This document shows positions 22,062-38,442 of a DNA stretch of 39,454 nucleotides, piece after piece. A program made the translations under genes and the position numbers. Source of the DNA: a virus. Each line of letters opens with the position of its first letter. Position 1 is the stretch's first letter. A model generated the notes under the pieces. It worked only from the letters and a program-made list of their open reading frames with translations. It was not told where the DNA came from and ran no database searches. The DNA lies in IMG/VR virus record IMGVR_UViG_3300040801_006104, positions 1 to 39,454 of that record. One strand, 5' to 3'.

Positions 22062-22817
22062 GTGTTCGCGAAGATCTACGCCCGTGCCAACCGGCGTGAG
22101 AAGAAGCCGACGGCGGTGAAGCCCGAGACGCCCAAGCCGGAGGCGAACCGTGCCACGGTCCACTTCGACGGATCCTGTCGGCCCAACCCGGGACCGATGG
22201 GGGTCGGCTACACCCTCCGCCTCAGCGACGCCCCCGACGAAGGTCGGGTGCTCGCGTACGGGGGAGGGCAGATCGGGCAGGGCACGAACAACGAAGCCGA
22301 GTACCAGGCGGCCCTGGTGGCCATCCGTCACGCCCTCCGGCTCGGCTTCTGGCACATTGACCTGGTGAGCGACAGTCAGCTCCTGGTGAATCAGATCAGC
22401 GGGGTGTGGGCCGTGAGAAAGGCGAAGCTCCGCCGGCTCTGCGAGGAGGCTCAGGCACTCCTCGCTCTCCCCCGCAGCGGGACCATCCGCCATGTGCGGA
22501 GGGAGGAGAACGAGGAGGCGGATTTGCTATCCCGGGACATGGTCTTCCACGAGCCTTCGCTCCCTGAGTGCGAGAAGAAGCTCTACCCCTGGCAAGCAGC
22601 GGCCATCCGTCTCTGGTGGCTTCAGGGGGAACGCAACTCGGCTCGACTGGCTCGGATCTTCGACATCGCACCGACCGAGGCCGAACGAGTCGGCGATGGT
22701 ACGTATTACCGAGAATCCGACTTCTCCGAGCTTCCCGACTGGGGCGACTTCTGGCTCCGCAACGCCGAAGCACGCCGCTCCGTGGAGGAGGATCTCCTCT
22801 TCTCGGGGAAAGACTGA
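22062..22817 (+). CDS. rnhA: RNase HI-like ribonuclease
   Basis: A 251-residue protein with a full RNase H fold in residues 31-160: D36 in FDGSCRPNPGP, E78 in TNNEAEY, D104 in SDSQLLV and D154 in REENEEADLLS, which are all four metal-binding acids. The FDGSxxPNPG/TNNxAEY pair is the RNase HI signature. It cuts RNA in RNA-DNA hybrids. The N-terminal 30 residues are Lys/Arg-rich and could bind nucleic acid. A 90-residue C-terminal extension (EKKLYPWQAAAIRLWW onwards) is extra to the usual family length and unrecognised. The start is GTG; no strong ribosome site is visible. It is the first clear gene beside the candidate origin, suggesting removal of origin RNA primers. Confidence 0.88.
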   Translation: MFAKIYARANRREKKPTAVKPETPKPEANRATVHFDGSCRPNPGPMGVGYTLRLSDAPDEGRVLAYGGGQIGQGTNNEAEYQAALVAIRHALRLGFWHIDLVSDSQLLVNQISGVWAVRKAKLRRLCEEAQALLALPRSGTIRHVRREENEEADLLSRDMVFHEPSLPECEKKLYPWQAAAIRLWWLQGERNSARLARIFDIAPTEAERVGDGTYYRESDFSELPDWGDFWLRNAEARRSVEEDLLFSGKD

Positions 22818-28038: not shown

Positions 28039-28374
28039 ATGACCGTTGATTCACCCGCCGTCATCCCAGCCGACCCCCCACCCCTGCCCCCCTCTTACGA
28101 CGCCTACCGCCTCTTCTGTCGCCTGTTCGACCGACCCCCCGCCCTCAAGTCGTCATGGCTCGACTTCCGGGACAGCTATCGCGGCATGTTTCTCGACCTC
28201 GCCGACTACGGGCGGTCGCAGCTCGACGCGTCCGGGCTCCTCGACGAGACCCCGCCTGACCTTCGCCCCTTCATCGACGCTGGTGCCTGGGCCCGCCACG
28301 GACGCCGGGAGGGGTGGATCAAGGTCCGCTCCGCTCCGGGCGGCAAGATTCACGTGTTCCTTGCAGAATGGTAA
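28039..28374 (+). CDS. unknown 111-residue protein
   Basis: Starts MTVDSPAVIPADPPPLPPSY; ACGGAG lies upstream of the ATG. The Pro-rich N-terminus (residues 8-19) leads into a helical part (YDAYRLFCRLFDRP, FRDSYRGMFLDLADYG). A short strand pair closes it (KVRSAPGGKIHVFLAEW). No motif of known function. It ends three bases before the beta-helix gene and is probably cotranscribed with it. Confidence 0.6.
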   Translation: MTVDSPAVIPADPPPLPPSYDAYRLFCRLFDRPPALKSSWLDFRDSYRGMFLDLADYGRSQLDASGLLDETPPDLRPFIDAGAWARHGRREGWIKVRSAPGGKIHVFLAEW

Positions 28375-30091: not shown

Positions 30092-31519
30092 ATGTCACGC
30101 TCCCCGAAACCCGGATCGGCCCCGGTAAAGAAGCCGCCACGTCAGTCCAAGGATCCCAGGTACGTCGAGATCCCGCCCAACGCGTCGCGGACCCTGGAAG
30201 CACTCCGCGAATTGGGCTATGACAGCTACGCCTCGATTATGGACCTCGTCGACAACAGCCTCGACGCAGGGGCTGGCGAGGTCGATATCTGGGTCAGGGA
30301 GACCCGTACCAAGAGGGAACAGCACGTTCACGTCGAGATCGCGGACAACGGGACGGGCATGGATCGCGAGCGGCTCGCCGAGGCCCTGCGGCTGGGCTCT
30401 GATGTGGAGCACGACGCCGACGCCGACCTGGGTAAGTTCGGCATGGGGCTCGTCACGGCTAGCTTGTCGATGGCCCGTAGCATCTACGTGCTCACCCGCG
30501 AGGAGGGGGCCACTGCTTGGCAGGCCGACTTCGACCTCGACCGCATCGCCGAGGAGGACAAGTTCGTCATCTCCCTTCAGCCGGCATCGAGCGAGCGGGT
30601 GCTCCGCACCCTGGGCAAGCGGGGGACCGTCGTCCGCCTCACCAAGGTCGACCGCATGGGCGACCGGAACATTAGCCGCTTCGCCCAGACCCTTCGCGAC
30701 AAGCTGGGCCGGGTCTACCGCAACCACCTGGAGCGGGGCACCAAGATCAAGGTCAACAACCGGCTCGTCCACGCATCCGACCCGCTTATGCGGGGTCACG
30801 AGCTGACCGAGGTTGTCCTCGACCAGGAGGTGCGAGTCGGAAACGGATCGGCCCGGCTCGTCGTCGTCGAGCTGCCCGACCTGGGCACCCAGGGCGACGC
30901 CGAGGCGGGGATTGCTCCGCACCGCAGCGGGTTCTACGTGGTACGGAACGGGCGGGAGATCATGAGCGCCCAGACCTTCGGCTTCTATCGGCATCACCAC
31001 AGCTACAGCCACTTCCGGGCCGAGCTGAGCTTCGGCGGCTCGCTCGACCACGAGTTCCACGTCGACGTGAAGAAGGCTTCGATCCACCCCAGCGACAAGC
31101 TGCTCGACAAGCTCCGCCGACCGACCGAGAGACTCATCGCCGCCAGTGGGCGGCGAGGGCGGGACCGAGTCGACACCGACGCCGTCCGGCTGAATCACGA
31201 CTTGGCCGCGGGCAGGATCAACGCCACCCCTGCCCCCACCAAGGGCCCGGTTCCGCTCATCCGGTTCGACGAGGCCGACCTCGACGACGACCGGCTCTTC
31301 CGCTACGACGGCGAGGAGGGCAGCACACAGATTACCTACAACGCCCGCCACCCCTTCCTCCGCATGATCCACGACCAGCGGGATCGGCGGGTCTCGGCGG
31401 TCCTGGACTACATCTCCTACGCCCTGGCAAGCTCCGTGCGGAAGCACCCCGAAGGCGAGAAGGTGCTCGCTACGTTGTTCGACGAACTGAAGGAACTTGC
31501 GGAACGGGAGGCAGCATGA
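30092..31519 (+). CDS. GHKL-superfamily ATPase (MutL/MORC/Hsp90-like)
   Basis: This 475-residue protein has a Bergerat ATP-binding fold shown by three motifs. The N box is D51-LVDN55-SLDAGA, with the acidic metal-site pattern of MutL and MORC proteins. The G1 box is D85-NGTGM90, and the G2 lid is G114-KFGMGL120. After the ATPase domain comes an S5-like middle region ending with HRSGFYVVRNGREIMS, and then a Lys-containing HEFHVDVKKASIHP segment, as in Hsp90-like ATPases. There is no histidine kinase phosphoacceptor domain and no MutL endonuclease motif. GHKL ATPases act as ATP-driven dimer clamps on DNA or client proteins. It leads an operon with a 73-residue protein (overlapping start) and continues to the DNA polymerase, so a replication, repair or defence-evasion role is possible. 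Confidence 0.88.
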   Translation: MSRSPKPGSAPVKKPPRQSKDPRYVEIPPNASRTLEALRELGYDSYASIMDLVDNSLDAGAGEVDIWVRETRTKREQHVHVEIADNGTGMDRERLAEALRLGSDVEHDADADLGKFGMGLVTASLSMARSIYVLTREEGATAWQADFDLDRIAEEDKFVISLQPASSERVLRTLGKRGTVVRLTKVDRMGDRNISRFAQTLRDKLGRVYRNHLERGTKIKVNNRLVHASDPLMRGHELTEVVLDQEVRVGNGSARLVVVELPDLGTQGDAEAGIAPHRSGFYVVRNGREIMSAQTFGFYRHHHSYSHFRAELSFGGSLDHEFHVDVKKASIHPSDKLLDKLRRPTERLIAASGRRGRDRVDTDAVRLNHDLAAGRINATPAPTKGPVPLIRFDEADLDDDRLFRYDGEEGSTQITYNARHPFLRMIHDQRDRRVSAVLDYISYALASSVRKHPEGEKVLATLFDELKELAEREAA

Positions 31520-31737
31520 GCGACGAGCAGGAGAACCAGCCCGTAGCGGGCAGGATCCGATCCGAGTGGGCTCTGCACGAACTCGTGCAGGAGTTCCGCC
31601 TGGTGGCCCGACGGGGCAATATCATCACCGTTCGTCGGCTGGTGGACGGTCGCATCGGCACTCTCGTATGCGACGACGACGTGGAGGGGCAGGAGCGGTT
31701 CTACGACTTCAGGCTCGAAGGGGAACAGAGACCCTAA
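31516..31737 (+). CDS. 73-residue partner-like protein of the GHKL ATPase
   Basis: Its ATG overlaps the ATPase stop (ATGA), and GGAGGCAGC lies before it, so the two are translationally coupled. The sequence is charged, with a helix (SEWALHELVQEFRLVARRGN) and a strand pair (IITVRRLVDGRIGTLVCDDD). No family is recognised. Tight coupling and size suggest a subunit or regulator of the ATPase; this is inferred only from gene order. Confidence 0.65.
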   Translation: MSDEQENQPVAGRIRSEWALHELVQEFRLVARRGNIITVRRLVDGRIGTLVCDDDVEGQERFYDFRLEGEQRP

Positions 31738-31823
31738 CATCCGGCGAACGACTTATCGGGCCCTTCCGTATGAATCCGGATTTTTCTTTTGCCCCAGTCC
31801 CGGACGTACCCCATATTGGAGGA

Positions 31824-32759
31824 ATGCTCGACACAGCGATTATCGGAGGTGGCCCTGCGGCGATGCAGGCGGCTATATCCCTGGCAAGCGAGGGGGTTCC
31901 TGTCCAAGTCTTCGAGAAGGGGGAGGCCGGGGGGCAGATCCGGCAGACGCCGCTCCTGGAGAACTTCGCCACGGCTTCCGGGGGTGTTGCCGGTGTCGAG
32001 TTCGTCGCGTCGATGCAGCGTCAGGCTGCACGTATGGGGGCAGGGTTCTTCCGGTCCCGCATCGTTGAGTTGGAGACCGGACCCGACGGCCACCGGCTCA
32101 CCTGTGACAGGGGGCGTACGCACACGTACCCCGCCGTCGTCCTGGCAACCGGGTGCCGCTGGCGTCACCTCGACATACCCGGCATGTCCGAGTGTGTCCG
32201 GGCAGGCCGGGCCCACTACGGCCCGGGGCACTGTGGTATGAGCCTCGGGCGGCGGGTCGCGGTCCTCGGCGGGGGCGGAGCGGCGGGGCAGGGGTTCCTG
32301 CAAGCTGCCCGTTCCGCGGGGGTTGTCCGGCTCGTGAGTCGGTCCGAGCTTCACATGCCGCGGTATCTGGAGGACAGGATCACCGATCTGGTCCAAAGCC
32401 GGGACAACGCTGTCCTGCACCTCAACAATGAGATCGCCGAGTTACGCCCTCGTCCGGACGGCGTGGAGGTGGACCTGGCGTGCGGCGAGTCGTTCGTGAC
32501 GGACGTCCTCCACGTGTGTGCCGGTCTTATGCCCGAGACGGAATGGCTGCCCTCCTCGATCCGGCTCGATCCCGGGGGCAGGGTACGGGTCGGTCTCAAC
32601 GGCGACCTTGGCACGTCCGTTGCCGGGGTCTTCGCCATCGGGGACTGCCGGGCCGGCTCGTACCCGCGGGTCGCATCGGCCATCGGCGACGGGGCGAACG
32701 TCGCCGTCGAGGTGATCCGTTACCTGTCCCTGACACCCGGAACCGCCCTCGTAGCCTAG
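31824..32759 (+). CDS. thioredoxin-reductase-like FAD/NAD(P) oxidoreductase without CxxC
   Basis: This 311-residue flavoprotein starts with the FAD-binding IIGGGPA (6-12) at the very N-terminus. An NAD(P)-binding VLGGGGAAG follows at 147-155 and the FAD-binding IGDCRAG at 272-278. The order and length match the TrxR family. The active-site Cys pair (CxxC, normally just before the second Rossmann fold) is missing: only C137 lies there, in GPGHC. MPRYLEDRI resembles the 'SRYL..RI' segment of TrxR-like proteins that lack the pair. The start at 31824 is chosen because the Rossmann motif begins there and GGAGG is just before it, though very close; an ATG at 31770 is possible. Role in the phage unknown; electron transfer to an unidentified partner is inferred. 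Confidence 0.82.
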   Translation: MLDTAIIGGGPAAMQAAISLASEGVPVQVFEKGEAGGQIRQTPLLENFATASGGVAGVEFVASMQRQAARMGAGFFRSRIVELETGPDGHRLTCDRGRTHTYPAVVLATGCRWRHLDIPGMSECVRAGRAHYGPGHCGMSLGRRVAVLGGGGAAGQGFLQAARSAGVVRLVSRSELHMPRYLEDRITDLVQSRDNAVLHLNNEIAELRPRPDGVEVDLACGESFVTDVLHVCAGLMPETEWLPSSIRLDPGGRVRVGLNGDLGTSVAGVFAIGDCRAGSYPRVASAIGDGANVAVEVIRYLSLTPGTALVA

Positions 32760-32761
32760 CC

Positions 32762-34699
32762 ATGAACCAGCCGATCGTTATCGACTTCGAGACCTTCTAC
32801 GACTCGAAGGACAAGTACACGCTCAAGAAGCTGAGCACGCCCGAGTACGTGGCGGACGAGCGCTTCTGTGTCACCGGGCTCGCCGTAGACGACGGCGGGG
32901 AGCAGCACTTCCTGCCCCCCTCCGACATCCCCGAGGCGTTGGAGGAGCTGCGGGGTCACACGTTGGTGATGCACAACGCCCACTTTGACGCCTACATCCT
33001 GAACTACGTCTACGACTTCCGGCCGGCGTACATGATCGACACGCTGCTGCTGGCGAACCATGTTCACGGTCCCGCGAAGGCGGGTCAAAAGAACGCCCTG
33101 GCCGACGTCGCCGACCGTCTCGGGATCGAGGCGAAGGGGCGGCTCGACTTCATGGACGGGGTCCGGGAGCCCGACGAGGCCCAGTTCGCAGCCCTGGCCG
33201 CCTACGCCAAGACCGATGTCCGCATCACGAGGCAGGTGCTTGACGCCCTCCTGCCCTCCCTTACAAGAGCGGAGTTCGAGTTGTGGCTGGCCGACCACAC
33301 GATCCGTCTCTTCAGTGAACAGAAGCTGGAACTCGACCCCGATCGGATCGAAGAACTCAGGGAGCGGGTGACCGCCCGTCGAACCGAGTACGTCAAGAAC
33401 AGCGGCGTCACGTCCGAGGTGCTGATGTCGAACGACAAGTTCGGCAAGGTGCTCCAGGACCGACTGGCGGAGCAGGGCATGGAGGTGCCGATGAAGAAGG
33501 CCCTGCCCCGGAAGGACGGGTCGACCCCGCTCATCCCGGCCATCTCCAAGTCGGACCCCGCGTTCCTCAAGCTGGCCGAGTCCGACAACAAGGACATCTC
33601 GGTGCTGGTGAAGGCCCGCCTCGCGGTTCGAAGCTCCACCACCATACAATCCAGACTGGATCGGATGGCTAACTTTTCCCGAATCGGGGGCATCCCGATC
33701 CACCTCGTCTACTACGGGGCCAAGACGGGCCGCTACGCGGGCGGAGGCGGGTTCAACTTCCAGAATCTGACCAGCCCCGCACGCGCGACTGACCCCATCG
33801 AGAAGGAGATTGCAACCGACGTCCGCCGATGCTTTGTTGCGGGGGAGGGCAGGGTGTTCGTTGCCGCGGATGCGTCGCAGATCGAAGCCCGCCTGCTCGC
33901 CTGGATGGCGGATGAACGGGAGATCGTCGACACGTTCGCGAAGGGGGAGGACATCTACTCGAAGTTCATCAGCGGCGTGCTGGGCGAGGACATCCACAAG
34001 CCGACGGACGACGACCCCGCGGACCAGCACGGCTATCTGAAGCTCATGCGGCACGTGGGCAAGGAGTCGATTCTGGGGCTCGGGTACTCCATGGGGGCGG
34101 AGCGGTTCCGCCAGCGGCTCGAACAGGAGCGGAGCTTGTGGTCCGTGCTCGCTGAAGGTGGAAGGCTGTCCGCCGATGTCACCGAGGATATCGTCAAACA
34201 GTACCGCGACCGGTACAAGAACATCAAACGCTTCTGGTACAGCCTCTTCGGGGCGTTCATGCACTGCGTCCGGGAAGGGCGGGGGTCGGAGCGGGGGGTC
34301 GGCCCCCTATTGTTCCGGCGGAAGGACAGGACGACGATCGCCCTCGACCTGCCCTCCGGTCGGTCCCTCTACTACAACAATGTCCGGTACGCTGAGAGGG
34401 GCCGCGAGGTGGTCCACGGGCCGGGCAAGGGACAGAAGATCTACGGCGGGATATTAGCGGAGAATTGTACGCAGGCTGTTGCCAGAGATGTACTTGCGGA
34501 AGCGATTCTCGCTGCGGAGCAGGCCGGATACCCGGTGCTCCTGTCGATCCACGACGAGCTGATTTGCCGAATCCCCGAGGGGCAGGGGGAAGAGTGCCTC
34601 CAGTTCCTCATCGAAACACTTTCCCGCACGCCCGAGTGGGCGGACCGCGACCTCATACTGGCCGCGGAGGGACATATCGCAACGGACCTTAGCAAGTAG
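32762..34699 (+). CDS. family A DNA polymerase with 3'-5' exonuclease
   Basis: In this 645-residue replicative polymerase, the exonuclease domain has D8-x-E10, N72...D76 and Y148...D152, which are the DEDDy residues. The polymerase domain has [14 protein letters not shown] at 322-336, motif A with D370 in [10 protein letters not shown], motif B R430-x3-K434 followed by GY442, and motif C H597-D598-E599. All catalytic acids are present. The usual Tyr after the motif A Asp is Ala here, a known phage variant. The start codon lies two bases after the flavoprotein stop. No 5'-3' exonuclease domain is present, as usual for phage enzymes. Confidence 0.93.
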
Positions 34700-34701
34700 A
34701 C

Positions 34702-34983
34702 ATGACCTACACCACATCCCAGAGACCAAACAAGAACTTCAACGCCTCCTCCAAGAACAGGATGAGTGCCCGCGTCAAGAACTGGTCCAATCGAACCGGA
34801 TACCGCGGGGTGCAGCCCATCCCGACGTTCCCGGGCAAGTTCAAAGCGACCTTGTGGCATCAGAGGCAGCCTAAGCACCTGGGCACCTTCACCTCCGCGG
34901 AGCAGGCAGCCCGGGCATACGACGCTGCTGCAAAGGAGTTCCACGGTGACGCCGCCATTCTCAACTTCCCGGAGGACAAGTGA
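34702..34983 (+). CDS. stand-alone AP2/ERF-type DNA-binding domain protein
   Basis: A 93-residue protein. Residues 33-90 match the AP2 domain: TGYRGV, then [19 protein letters not shown], then the helix [19 protein letters not shown], and the closing ILNFPED. The YRGV start, LGTF turn, AA.AYD..A and LNFP end are the AP2 landmarks. In phages AP2 usually comes fused to an HNH nuclease; no HNH motif is present here. It sits between polymerase and nuclease genes, two bases and minus four bases from them. It probably binds DNA; target unknown. Confidence 0.8.
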
Positions 34984-36113
34984 ACAAGCCGGTCATCCGA
35001 TGCAGTTCCATCCCGACCCTGATAAAGTGTCCGGCCAGCGTCCTCAACCCCGACGGCTTGACGGTCGTCGAGACGCACAACGACGCCGCCGAACTGGGCA
35101 CGCTGATCCACGCGGAGCTGGAACGGCTCGTCGACACCGGCGAGACCGCGATGGATGCTCTCAAGCAACGCCTCAACGACGCCGACCATGCCCGGGCGTG
35201 CAAGCTGATCGACAACTTCGGCCCCATCTGGCGGGAGGCCAGGTCGCACATGACCGACCCCAGGACCGAGCGGTCCCTGCGGGCCGAGACGGACAGCTTC
35301 ATTCTCACGGGCCACATCGACCTGAGCAGCGTCGAGAGCGACCGGGCGTTCCTGATCGACTACAAGACCGGCCGGCAGCACGGGGACCACTACCACCAGA
35401 TGGCGGGCTACGCCTTCCTCCTGTGGGATTCGGCCGGGAAACCCGAGGACTACACCGTCTACGCGTCAGCGGTCTACCTCGAAGATCGGAGCGTCCACGG
35501 CCATACCTTCACACCCCAGGGCCTCCGGGACTGGGTTGCGGAGGTGGGGGCCAAAGTTGCCGGGGCAGGGTACGCAGTGGGGCGGCACTGTGCGTACTGC
35601 ACGATCGCCGACTCCTGTCCCTCCTATCTCACTTATGCCCGGAACTCCGTAGCAGCCCTCGCCGAGGCGACGGACGACGACAAGCCCGTGCGGTGGGCGG
35701 ACCTCGAACCGGCCGAGCGGGGAGCCCTGGCCGACAGCCTCTACGTCGTCGAGAAGATGGTCGACCGGCTCAAGCTGAGCCTCCGGAACACGGTCAAGCG
35801 GAGCGGGTCGGTCGACCTGGGCGACGGGAGCCAGTACCAGATGGTCTCCCAGGAGAACCGATCGGTGAACCTGACCCGTGCCCTGCCCGTCCTGCGGGAA
35901 CGGGTCGGCGAGGGGGTCATCATGGAACACGCTTCCCTCTCCCTCGAAAAGGTGCTGCACGATTACAGCAAACGTGCCGCGAGGGGGAAGAAGAGTCAGG
36001 CCCGACGAGACCTCGCCGAGGAACTCGAAAAGGCTGGTGCGATTGAACGGAGGGCGACGGAGCGGATGTACCGCCGGCCCCGCGGTGAAGTAGAACTAGA
36101 CATTAAGGAGTAA
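34980..36113 (+). CDS. Cas4/RecB-like PD-(D/E)XK nuclease
   Basis: This 377-residue protein starts with GTG overlapping the AP2 gene stop. RecB-family motifs are in order: H44 (GTLIHAE), G110-HID114, D127-YK129-TG, Q140...Y144. Cys at 17, 204, 207 and 213 ([12 protein letters not shown]) are placed as in the Fe-S cluster of Cas4 and of DUF2800-type phage nucleases. The C-terminal 150 residues are helical and charged. It likely acts as a 5'-3' or end-resecting exonuclease feeding the ERF annealing protein encoded next, five bases later. No helicase domain is fused. Confidence 0.83.
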
Positions 36114-36117
36114 CCTC

Positions 36118-36666
36118 ATGAGTGACACAGTAGACCCCAAGATAGCTGCTGCACTGCTGGCGGCACAGAAGGACATTGAGAGTGCAACCAAGAACGCCAA
36201 GAACCCGCACTTCGGTAACGACTACGCCGACCTGGCGACGGTGATCGACGCGGTGAAGCCGGCTCTGAACAAGCACGACATCGCTTTCGTTCAGCTCCCC
36301 GTCGAACCCCCGTTCGAAGGCCACCTTGCCATCCGGACCATCCTCCTCCACAAGAGCGGCGAGACGCTGGCCGGCACGGCTGTCGTCCCCCTTCCGAAGA
36401 GCGACCCCCAGGGTTACGGGTCCGCCGTGACCTACGCCCGACGGTACGCATTGGCTTCGATCGTAGGGCTCAAGACCCTCGACGACGACGGGGAAGCCGC
36501 GTCGGGCAGGCCGAAGGCATCGGCCTCGAAGAAGTCGTTCACCCGACCCGAGGAGAAGCCGGAGGAGAAACCCCTGAAAGGTCTCCGGAACCTGAAGCTG
36601 ACCCCGAAGAAGTCGGAGAAGAAGGGCACCAGCAAGCTGTTCCCCGTGCCGCAAGGAGGTAAGTGA
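36118..36666 (+). CDS. erf: ERF-family single-strand annealing protein
   Basis: A 182-residue protein. The N-terminal ERF domain shows KNPHFGNDYADLATVIDAV, then GSAVTYARRYALASIVGL and DDDGE, the strongest signatures of the family. The C-terminal 60 residues are Lys/Glu/Pro-rich and probably disordered. ERF proteins anneal complementary single strands in phage recombination, working with an exonuclease. AAGGAG lies eight bases before the ATG. Its stop overlaps the next gene (TGATG). Confidence 0.9.
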   Translation: MSDTVDPKIAAALLAAQKDIESATKNAKNPHFGNDYADLATVIDAVKPALNKHDIAFVQLPVEPPFEGHLAIRTILLHKSGETLAGTAVVPLPKSDPQGYGSAVTYARRYALASIVGLKTLDDDGEAASGRPKASASKKSFTRPEEKPEEKPLKGLRNLKLTPKKSEKKGTSKLFPVPQGGK

Positions 36667-36830
36667 TGCCGCACCCCGAGGAAGACGAACGCATTATGGG
36701 GCGGGAACCCGAAGACGACGAGGACCGGGAGCGTCGGAGGAAGGCAAGGGAACGCCAGCGGGAGCGGGAGCGGTTGAACCGCCGCCTCGAAGAGGGATTC
36801 CGCATGTTGGGGGGTGAGAGTGTCGAATGA
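36666..36830 (+). CDS. 54-residue charged coiled-coil protein
   Basis: The ATG overlaps the ERF stop (TGATG). The product is almost entirely Arg/Glu/Asp/Lys with a heptad-like RERRRKARERQRERERLN run, ending GFRMLGGESVE. It overlaps the helicase start. A helicase loader or ERF partner is a guess from place; no family is recognised. Overlaps on both sides and the absence of other coding here support translation. Confidence 0.6.
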   Translation: MPHPEEDERIMGREPEDDEDRERRRKARERQRERERLNRRLEEGFRMLGGESVE

Positions 36831-37659
36831 CACCCGAGTGCCACCCCTGACCCTCTTGGGGGAAGGTGCCGAACACGACCTGCTCGACGACGAGCCCGAG
36901 GCGTTCGTTCCAAGCGGCCTTCGCAGCCTGGACGAGTTGGTCCTCGGGGCCGTGGCCGGGGAGCTGACCGTTCTCGCCGGACAGGCGGGGCAGGGCAAGA
37001 CCAGCCTCGCCGTCCAGTGGGCCATGGATGCGGCGGAGCGGGGCATCCCCTCGGCTATTCTGTCCCTCGAAATGGGCCGCCGGGCCCTCCGGAACCGGAT
37101 CATCAGCGGGCTCACGGGCATCGACATGTCCGCCCTCCGCACCCGCCGGTGGGAGTCGGACGACCAGCGGAAGCTGGCCCTCGACGCGGCGGAGCACCTC
37201 GCCACCCTGCCCCTCTATGTCGACGATCGGTCGGGTCTCTCGGGCGACGACACGCGGGCGACCCTGGAGGAGTGGGCAGGGCAGGGCATCGGCTTCGCCG
37301 TGGTCGACTACCTCCAGCAGATGGGCGGGGCGAACGAAAGCCGGGTGGTGCAGGTGGGGGACGCGGTGCGGGCGGTGAAGTCGGCGGCCATGGCCGCTGA
37401 TCTGCCCGTCGTGCTGCTTTCCTCCCTCAACCGCTCCTCCAACCTGGGGGGCACCCCCCGGACGAACTGGCTAAGGGACAGCGGGGACATCGAGTTCGTG
37501 GCTGACACCATACTGATGCTCCACTATCCCGACGACGACCTCTACGAAGACAGACGACACTGTGACATCCACTGCGTAAAGCAGCGTAACGGGCCGACCG
37601 GGGTGGCGGCGGCGACGTTCGACAAGAAGTCCACCCGATTTCTGGAACCGAAATGGTGA
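36814..37659 (+). CDS. DnaB-like replicative helicase (RecA-type domain only)
   Basis: A 281-residue protein with GTG start at 36814 (an in-frame GTG at 36820 is equally possible). Walker A is GQAGQGKTS (56-64), Walker B FAVVDYLQQM (161-170), followed by LLSSLNR. The DnaB signature LRDSGDIEFVADTILMLH (220-237) and the KQRNGPTG segment (256-263) are both present. The N-terminal DnaB domain that binds primase is lacking, and no primase gene is visible in the window. It should unwind the fork for the family A polymerase. Confidence 0.88.
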   Translation: MRVSNDTRVPPLTLLGEGAEHDLLDDEPEAFVPSGLRSLDELVLGAVAGELTVLAGQAGQGKTSLAVQWAMDAAERGIPSAILSLEMGRRALRNRIISGLTGIDMSALRTRRWESDDQRKLALDAAEHLATLPLYVDDRSGLSGDDTRATLEEWAGQGIGFAVVDYLQQMGGANESRVVQVGDAVRAVKSAAMAADLPVVLLSSLNRSSNLGGTPRTNWLRDSGDIEFVADTILMLHYPDDDLYEDRRHCDIHCVKQRNGPTGVAAATFDKKSTRFLEPKW

Positions 37660-38060
37660 CTGACAGTAACTATAGACCGAAAGCGTTTCTATGCGGACCC
37701 CGTGGGCCGGGCGGGTTCGAGAAGTCGGAGTTCGACACTGCCGCCGAACTGGCCTTCTCGAAGGGGTACGAGCCCGTCAACCCCCGGGAGCTTGACCTGC
37801 AGGCGAGTCCGTCCGATGAGTCTCGCTCCCCGGACCAGGAGAGGCGGAGAAGGATGCTCCGTTACTGCTCCGAGCTACTCAGCTTGAGAGCTGAGAAGGG
37901 TGACGTGGTGGTGCTCCTGGACGGCTGGGAGGAGAACCCCTGGGCGACCTTCTTCGCGATGGTCGCCCGTTGTCTCAACCTGCCCCTCTACACCGACGGG
38001 AACTACCGGCGGACGTGGTACTTTCTTTCTGGAAGCGACGAGGATGAATATGGAGTTTGA
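37653..38060 (+). CDS. DUF4406-like nucleotide-binding protein
   Basis: A 135-residue protein whose start overlaps the helicase stop by seven bases. It follows the pattern 'aflcGP.G..., AAELAFSKGYEPVNPREL, then D.VVLLDGWEENPWATFFAMVARCLNLPLY'. This is the layout of DUF4406/nucleoside 2-deoxyribosyltransferase-like folds, with a GW and an acidic residue in the binding loop. It probably binds or modifies a nucleotide or deoxynucleoside, and stands directly before a nucleotide pyrophosphohydrolase-type gene. Activity is not shown by the sequence. Confidence 0.65.
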   Translation: MVTDSNYRPKAFLCGPRGPGGFEKSEFDTAAELAFSKGYEPVNPRELDLQASPSDESRSPDQERRRRMLRYCSELLSLRAEKGDVVVLLDGWEENPWATFFAMVARCLNLPLYTDGNYRRTWYFLSGSDEDEYGV

Positions 38061-38442
38061 CATCAAAGACAGCGGAGAACGGCAGGACTTCGAGACCGGG
38101 GCCGTACGGGACTCGCAGGAGGGCAAGGGGTTGTACGACTGCCTGCCCTTCGAGGCCATCCGGCGGCTCGCGGTTCAGCTTGAGAAGGGTGCCCACAAGT
38201 ACAACAAGAACAACTGGCGAAAGGGAATGCCCCTCTCCAGGTTCCTGAGTTCGGCCCTTCGGCACCTCATGAAGTACGCCGACGGCCACCGGGACGAGGA
38301 TCACCTGGCTGCTGCTCTGTTCAACGTGGCGGCACTGATCGAAACCGAGCGGGCCATCAGGCAGGGCAGGGTGCCGCTCCTCTTTGCGGACCTGGAGGAC
38401 TACGGGGGCGGATACGAGGAGGATTCAGATGAACCAGTTTGA
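38050..38442 (+). CDS. dATP/dGTP diphosphohydrolase-like (MazZ/DUF5664-type) protein
   Basis: A 130-residue protein; the ATG at 38050 has GAGG six bases upstream (38044 is an alternative). It matches the 'GERQDFETGAVRD...GKGLYDCLPFEAIRRL, EKGAHKYNKNNWRKGMPLS, SALRHLMKYADGHRDEDHLAAALFN' pattern, including the K.Y...NW.KG and DEDHLAA.. segments of this family. Members remove pyrophosphate from dNTPs; the MazZ branch works in phages that replace adenine by 2-aminoadenine. That use would also need PurZ, which is not in the window. It overlaps the preceding gene by 11 bases. Confidence 0.75.
   Translation: MEFDIKDSGERQDFETGAVRDSQEGKGLYDCLPFEAIRRLAVQLEKGAHKYNKNNWRKGMPLSRFLSSALRHLMKYADGHRDEDHLAAALFNVAALIETERAIRQGRVPLLFADLEDYGGGYEEDSDEPV

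Follow-up and report, generated by a model that had tools for sequence, protein, structure and literature searches.

An uncultivated phage carries, at the head of its replication genes, a standalone ATPase of the MORC type. The window analysed here is the whole 39,454-base IMG/VR virus record of this phage, and both sequence profile and fold model strongly identify its ATPase as a MORC-type protein made of a GHKL and an S5 domain. MORC proteins are known from bacterial restriction systems and from animal chromatin, and published accounts of the prokaryotic members concern restriction operons of bacteria and archaea; the orphan phage protein is a variant of this already known prokaryotic family. 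No description of standalone MORCs within phage replication blocks turned up in the open-access literature searched. The ATPase appears to be an accessory gene in its lineage, and our tentative reading is that it may act as an ATP-gated DNA clamp that shields or organises the phage DNA against host nucleases.

Gene order in the window

The structural genes lie on the strand opposite to the ATPase block, from ∼0.3 to 21 kb. The genes for the ATPase, a small protein, a flavoprotein and a DNA polymerase follow each other in one direction (30092-34699, + strand) with a GC3 of 0.81-0.87 across all four. A previous sequence-only reading had placed the ATPase, the small ORF coupled to it and the flavoprotein in 30092-32759, with the polymerase behind them, and this layout was confirmed; only 2 nt separate the flavoprotein stop from the family-A polymerase gene. 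The features are as follows:

30092..31519, + strand: standalone MORC-type GHKL ATPase, 475 aa (HATPase_c_3 7e-24; MzaB 5e-27; model)
30182..30649, + strand: GHKL ATP-binding domain of the ATPase, residues about 31-186 (invariant residues in 21 relatives; model)
30719..31177, + strand: S5-fold (transducer) region of the ATPase, residues about 210-362 (alignment; model; motif from PMC2292703)
31256..31516, + strand: small C-terminal domain of the ATPase, residues about 389-475 (alignments; model)
31516..31737, + strand: 73-aa protein, no family match (ORF, ATGA overlap, ribosome site, GC3, model)
31824..32759, + strand: thioredoxin-reductase-like flavoprotein without CxxC (Pyr_redox_2 7e-32; TrxR structures 7e-26)
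32762..34699, + strand: family-A DNA polymerase with 3'-5' exonuclease-like region (PHROG 17 4e-75; DNA_pol_A 1e-23)
34980..36113, + strand: PD-(D/E)XK exonuclease of the replication/recombination block (PDDEXK_1 7e-13; PHROG 69 exonuclease)
36118..36666, + strand: ERF-type single-strand annealing protein (ERF 2e-26; PHROG 2324)
36814..37659, + strand: DnaB-like replicative helicase (DnaB_C 3e-48; PHROG 19)

Several other genes were observed in the window. Between the polymerase and exonuclease genes lies an AP2-like DNA-binding ORF (34702-34983, + strand) that resembles the C-terminal part of HNH homing endonucleases, the nuclease part being missing. An RNase H-like protein (22062-22817, + strand; RVT_3 6e-19) and a dATP/dGTP diphosphohydrolase N-terminal domain (37900-38442, + strand; PF18909, 1e-19) are both conserved in a sister phage, G001. 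The PF18909 family is known from phages with altered nucleotide pools; in view of the domain at 37900 and a weak DpoZ similarity, we considered that the phage might have a 2-aminoadenine genome. A promoter and terminator scan gave a result at chance level. Finally, an ORF of 111 aa (28039-28374, + strand) has a match, below threshold, to the C-terminal portion of the antirestriction protein ArdA (PF07275, E 0.0025) and none in a PDB sequence search. Apart from this ORF, the window holds no direct sign of counter-defence; if it is real, this ORF, 2 kb upstream of the ATPase, would support the presence of counter-restriction genes there.

The ATPase and its relatives

The earlier description of the ATPase as MutL/MORC-like is correct, and sequence profile and fold allow it to be narrowed to MORC. 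Pfam assigned the ORF to HATPase_c_3 (7e-24), and the best family match was MzaB over residues about 27-347 (PADLOC, 5e-27, and also NCBIfam). When a profile made from 21 relatives was compared with solved structures, MORC2 (1e-14) came ahead of MutL (6e-8), and a fold search with the AlphaFold model (mean pLDDT 82) returned MORC3/MORC2 with Z ∼26, SMCHD1 with 24 and Hsp90 with ∼21. The GHKL motifs are all present (D51/N55 of the N-box, D85xGxG, the G114..G119 lid and G178-T179), and N55, D85, G87, G89, G114, G119, G178, T179 and the S5 lysine K328 are invariant in the alignment of the 21 relatives. The N-box acid is Asp51, which is common to most prokaryotic relatives, whereas it is Glu in MutL and MORC2. 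The strands and helices of the S5 region superpose on MORC3/MORC2, and within it GFYVVRNGREI (residues 280-290) fits the prokaryotic MORC S5 signature GhXhhpXXRhl (PMC2292703) at 10 of 11 positions, with a Glu where a hydrophobic residue is expected. The last ∼85 residues are predicted to form a small domain of beta and alpha structure without a Pfam match, in agreement with the previous statement that the ATPase lacks a known effector domain; restriction-linked relatives from bacteria and further phage ATPases have a region similar to the N..HPF motif region of this domain.

Compared with eukaryotic MORC2/MORC3, the phage protein has the same ATPase-module fold (Z ∼26 over 304-319 residues), but the identity is only 14-15%, the CW zinc finger and coiled coils are absent, and the N-box carries Asp instead of Glu. 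MutL shares the GHKL and S5 fold and gives a sequence match of 3e-6; however, MORC is better by both profile and fold, and the C-terminal endonuclease/dimerisation domain of MutL was not recognised in the phage ATPase.

The cellular relatives are subunits of restriction(-modification) or MZA operons. Plasmid-borne relatives occur in two types of operon, one with Dcm, Vsr, EcoRII-N proteins, SF2 helicases and HNH nucleases and the other with Z1, PD-(D/E)XK and AIPR proteins. These loci agree with the restriction-operon settings that a survey of prokaryotic MORCs has described (Iyer, Abhiman, Aravind 2008, PMC2292703). MORCs of restriction-modification operons resemble the phage ATPase in the GHKL and S5 domains, the intact ATP site and the N-box Asp and come near to it in the S5 signature, and those linked to EcoRII-N, HNH and helicase genes also in the C-terminal N..HPF region. 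On the other hand, they are only 26-33% identical to it, and the phage gene sits in a replication block with no adjoining methyltransferase, SF2 helicase or restriction endonuclease. In the tree, the ATPases of the window and of locus L002 group with an Elusimicrobia protein, the nearest cellular relative there (support 100/96), whose gene adjoins a BamHI-family endonuclease and two methyltransferases. The phage ATPase may therefore share descent with a restriction-system subunit.

Membership in the MZA system was rejected in spite of the MzaB match: the ATPase scored 100 bits against the curated MzaB cutoff of 850 (NCBIfam), and no Z1, PD-(D/E)XK or AIPR partner adjoins it, its neighbours being replication genes. 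Deposited phage records yielded only three distant ATPase matches, and the two that were inspected lie, judging by their ORFs, in MZA/restriction-like operons and not among phage replication genes.

The small protein, the flavoprotein and the sister phages

The 73-codon ORF is very likely a gene, as its start overlaps the ATPase stop in an ATGA, a GGGAGG ribosome site lies four bases before the ATG, and its GC3 of 0.81 is like that of the neighbour genes. Both the ATGA coupling and the absence of a known family had been pointed out previously; indeed, the protein had no match in Pfam, PHROG, PADLOC or NCBIfam. Its model, built from two sequences (pLDDT 77), shows a short helix and a sheet of four strands and found no informative match in the fold search, where the best Z was 4.7 and the Foldseek E 0.4. 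Judging by the gene overlap, this protein would be the likeliest partner or adaptor of the ATPase; its lack of significant conservation in the sister phage counts against such a role.

The flavoprotein gene spans 31824-32759, with 31824 as its most likely start. Pyr_redox_2 covers almost the full length of the protein (7e-32, Pfam), and TrxR structures matched at 7e-26. With its FAD and pyridine-nucleotide domains it resembles low-molecular-weight thioredoxin reductases and TrxR-like ferredoxin-NADP reductases, while its TIGR01292 score of 129 bits is under the equivalog cutoff of 343 (NCBIfam). At the site of the redox-active CxxC of classical thioredoxin reductase it has G-P-G-H, and the sister phage protein has G-P-V-K; the description as CxxC-less was thus correct. 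This means that the protein is not a classical thioredoxin reductase and that the classical disulfide relay is impossible. Its chemistry would most likely be NAD(P)H-to-flavin electron transfer, as in the TrxR-like ferredoxin-NADP reductases. Nothing in the evidence gathered links it functionally to the ATPase, and it could be a separate accessory reductase that passes electrons via flavin without a disulfide and only shares the operon.

Do the three genes form one phage unit, as the sequence-only reading proposed? We scanned 2.9 million viral contigs (IMG/VR) for relatives of the ATPase and of the flavoprotein and found at least one close relative of each, both in the contig G001; as the searches were seeded with short conserved peptides, distant relatives are missed and these counts are lower bounds. 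G001 is a colinear sister phage (54% for terminase, 55% for portal and 60% for the major head protein relative to the window; on the replication side ∼62% for DnaB, 48% for polymerase and 56% for the ATPase). The order ATPase, small gene, flavoprotein, polymerase is the same as in the window, with extra ORFs between the small gene and the flavoprotein where the window has an 86-nt gap. This contig also encodes an RNA ligase domain (PF09414, L058:2290-3054). In G002, a third sister (52% for terminase, 40% for polymerase), the block of polymerase, exonuclease and ERF genes is present, but the ATPase and the flavoprotein are absent although 8 kb upstream of the polymerase are covered. Thus, both genes appear to be accessory in this phage lineage. 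Searching for further sisters by terminase yielded mainly fragments in which the polymerase region was missing. Furthermore, the flanks of the ATPase genes at 56 bacterial loci (genome contigs) held no relatives of the flavoprotein, the small protein or the polymerase. The idea of one unit is thus supported only in part: the three genes occur together in one colinear sister phage, where they are not contiguous, and at none of the bacterial loci, and the other sister lacks the ATPase and the flavoprotein.

That the three genes form one functional set, in which the flavoprotein gives electrons to, or senses redox for, the ATPase and the small protein, appears improbable to us. The conserved order in G001 and the joint absence of ATPase and flavoprotein from G002 speak for it, and this joint presence and absence is suggestive, no more, in only three informative genomes; it amounts to co-inheritance within a lineage and is not proof of a functional set. 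The extra ORFs in the sister phage and the 86-nt gap in the window speak against a set, as do the small proteins of the window and G001, which are not significantly alike (BLAST E 0.013; 123 of 5000 shuffles score as high, which is near chance).

Possible functions of the phage MORC

Divergent MORC-like ATPases (19-32% mutual identity in most pairs) were also found in distant uncultivated phages, where they adjoin genes for gp32-like SSB and UvsX/RecA, with polymerase, FEN-type exonuclease and DnaB genes nearby. In the 80 loci nearest by RecA (L152-L231), an ATPase lies between SSB and RecA in only two, while 55 have no ATPase and a gap of <1 kb. Other occupants of the slot include a Dam-type methyltransferase, FKBP, a sulfotransferase, an RNase H-like protein and genes without an assigned family. 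Across a large set of uncultivated phages the SSB–RecA interval is thus an optional cargo site, which many of them leave empty, and we dropped the SSB–ATPase–RecA order as proof of a replisome role. In one pair of loci (L006:886-2605 and L124:5751-7450) the ATPases are 21% identical while both flanks are 77-80% identical as DNA, which means that ATPases from different clades occupy the slot; the pair is an apparent cassette exchange. Although L006 is a short contig (4.8 kb), its two flanks match one and the same genome, making a simple assembly chimera unlikely. Such a deep difference between near-identical flanks in an optional slot is as expected of cargo genes. Between polymerase and SSB, another conserved gene was seen at two loci (L004:5793-6596, L009:3228-4100), with no Pfam match for L004 and no PHROG match for L009; by eye, its product is possibly a nucleotide-binding Rossmann or a tubulin-like protein.

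Is the phage MORC then a cofactor of replication or recombination? In such a case a MutL-like MORC clamp would load or regulate the PD-(D/E)XK exonuclease, ERF, polymerase and helicase at forks or breaks. The ATPase is in line with the polymerase, exonuclease, ERF and DnaB genes, its place directly before the polymerase suits a replication role, and the ATPases of the second group also lie among polymerase, SSB, RecA, FEN-type exonuclease and DnaB genes. However, G002 retains polymerase, exonuclease and ERF without the ATPase, the SSB–RecA slot is without it in 78 of the 80 nearest loci, and the same slot also takes unrelated cargo; we consider a cofactor unlikely, if by no means far-fetched. 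In both of the phage groups examined the ATPase is an accessory gene, so the earlier suggestion of repair or fork protection gains no preference over that of counter-defence. Counter-defence in turn has to account for the conservation of the ATPase between the two sisters (56%), which is about that of portal and terminase; a gene in an arms race would be expected to diverge faster, which counts against such a reading. Another form of protection could be modelled on T4, with the ATPase and the small protein acting as RIIA and RIIB do against prophage-borne exclusion systems, in exclusion or membrane protection. T4 RIIA, one half of a two-gene module, likewise carries a GHKL domain at its N-terminus (PMC7824862; PMC11879866), and RIIA-like proteins were among the viral fold matches of the ATPase. 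Nevertheless, the T4 RIIA profile match is weak (probability 47%) and confined to the ATP-binding domain, MORC matches far better, the gene setting differs, and so do the sizes (RIIA 725 aa and RIIB ∼312 aa versus 475 and 73 aa). An rII-like role therefore seems rather improbable, marginally less so than the functional set with the flavoprotein.

We narrowly favour shielding or organising of phage DNA over a role in core replication, given that the ATPase is an accessory gene and kin to restriction subunits and that the site in the other phage group elsewhere holds a methyltransferase; even so, we would give this accessory clamp somewhat less than an even chance. Eukaryotic MORC2 clamps onto DNA and, hydrolysing ATP, compacts it (PMC12216690), from which an ATP-clamp role can fairly be inferred for the phage protein, and by family the phage ATPase should bind ATP, dimerise and hold DNA. 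In the proposed mechanism, this phage-borne standalone prokaryotic MORC would close its two subunits on DNA upon ATP binding, and hydrolysis would reset the clamp. Encoded at the head of the replication block, it would coat or compact the phage DNA, which would thereby be shielded from host nuclease complexes, including MORC-containing restriction systems; alternatively, the ATPase may compete with these complexes. The product of the overlapping gene would be made in step with it and could serve as the putative partner. A broader idea, that phages carry interchangeable orphan MORC ATPases as domesticated restriction-system subunits, swapped as cassettes at fixed replication-block sites and shielding replicating DNA from host systems of the same family, is more speculative and on balance doubtful.

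If phage MORCs clamp DNA, they would offer a simple model, encoded by one gene, of the MORC engine without chromatin, and possibly a new phage route to resist restriction. The exchange of ATPases between near-identical flanks offers a ready natural comparison.
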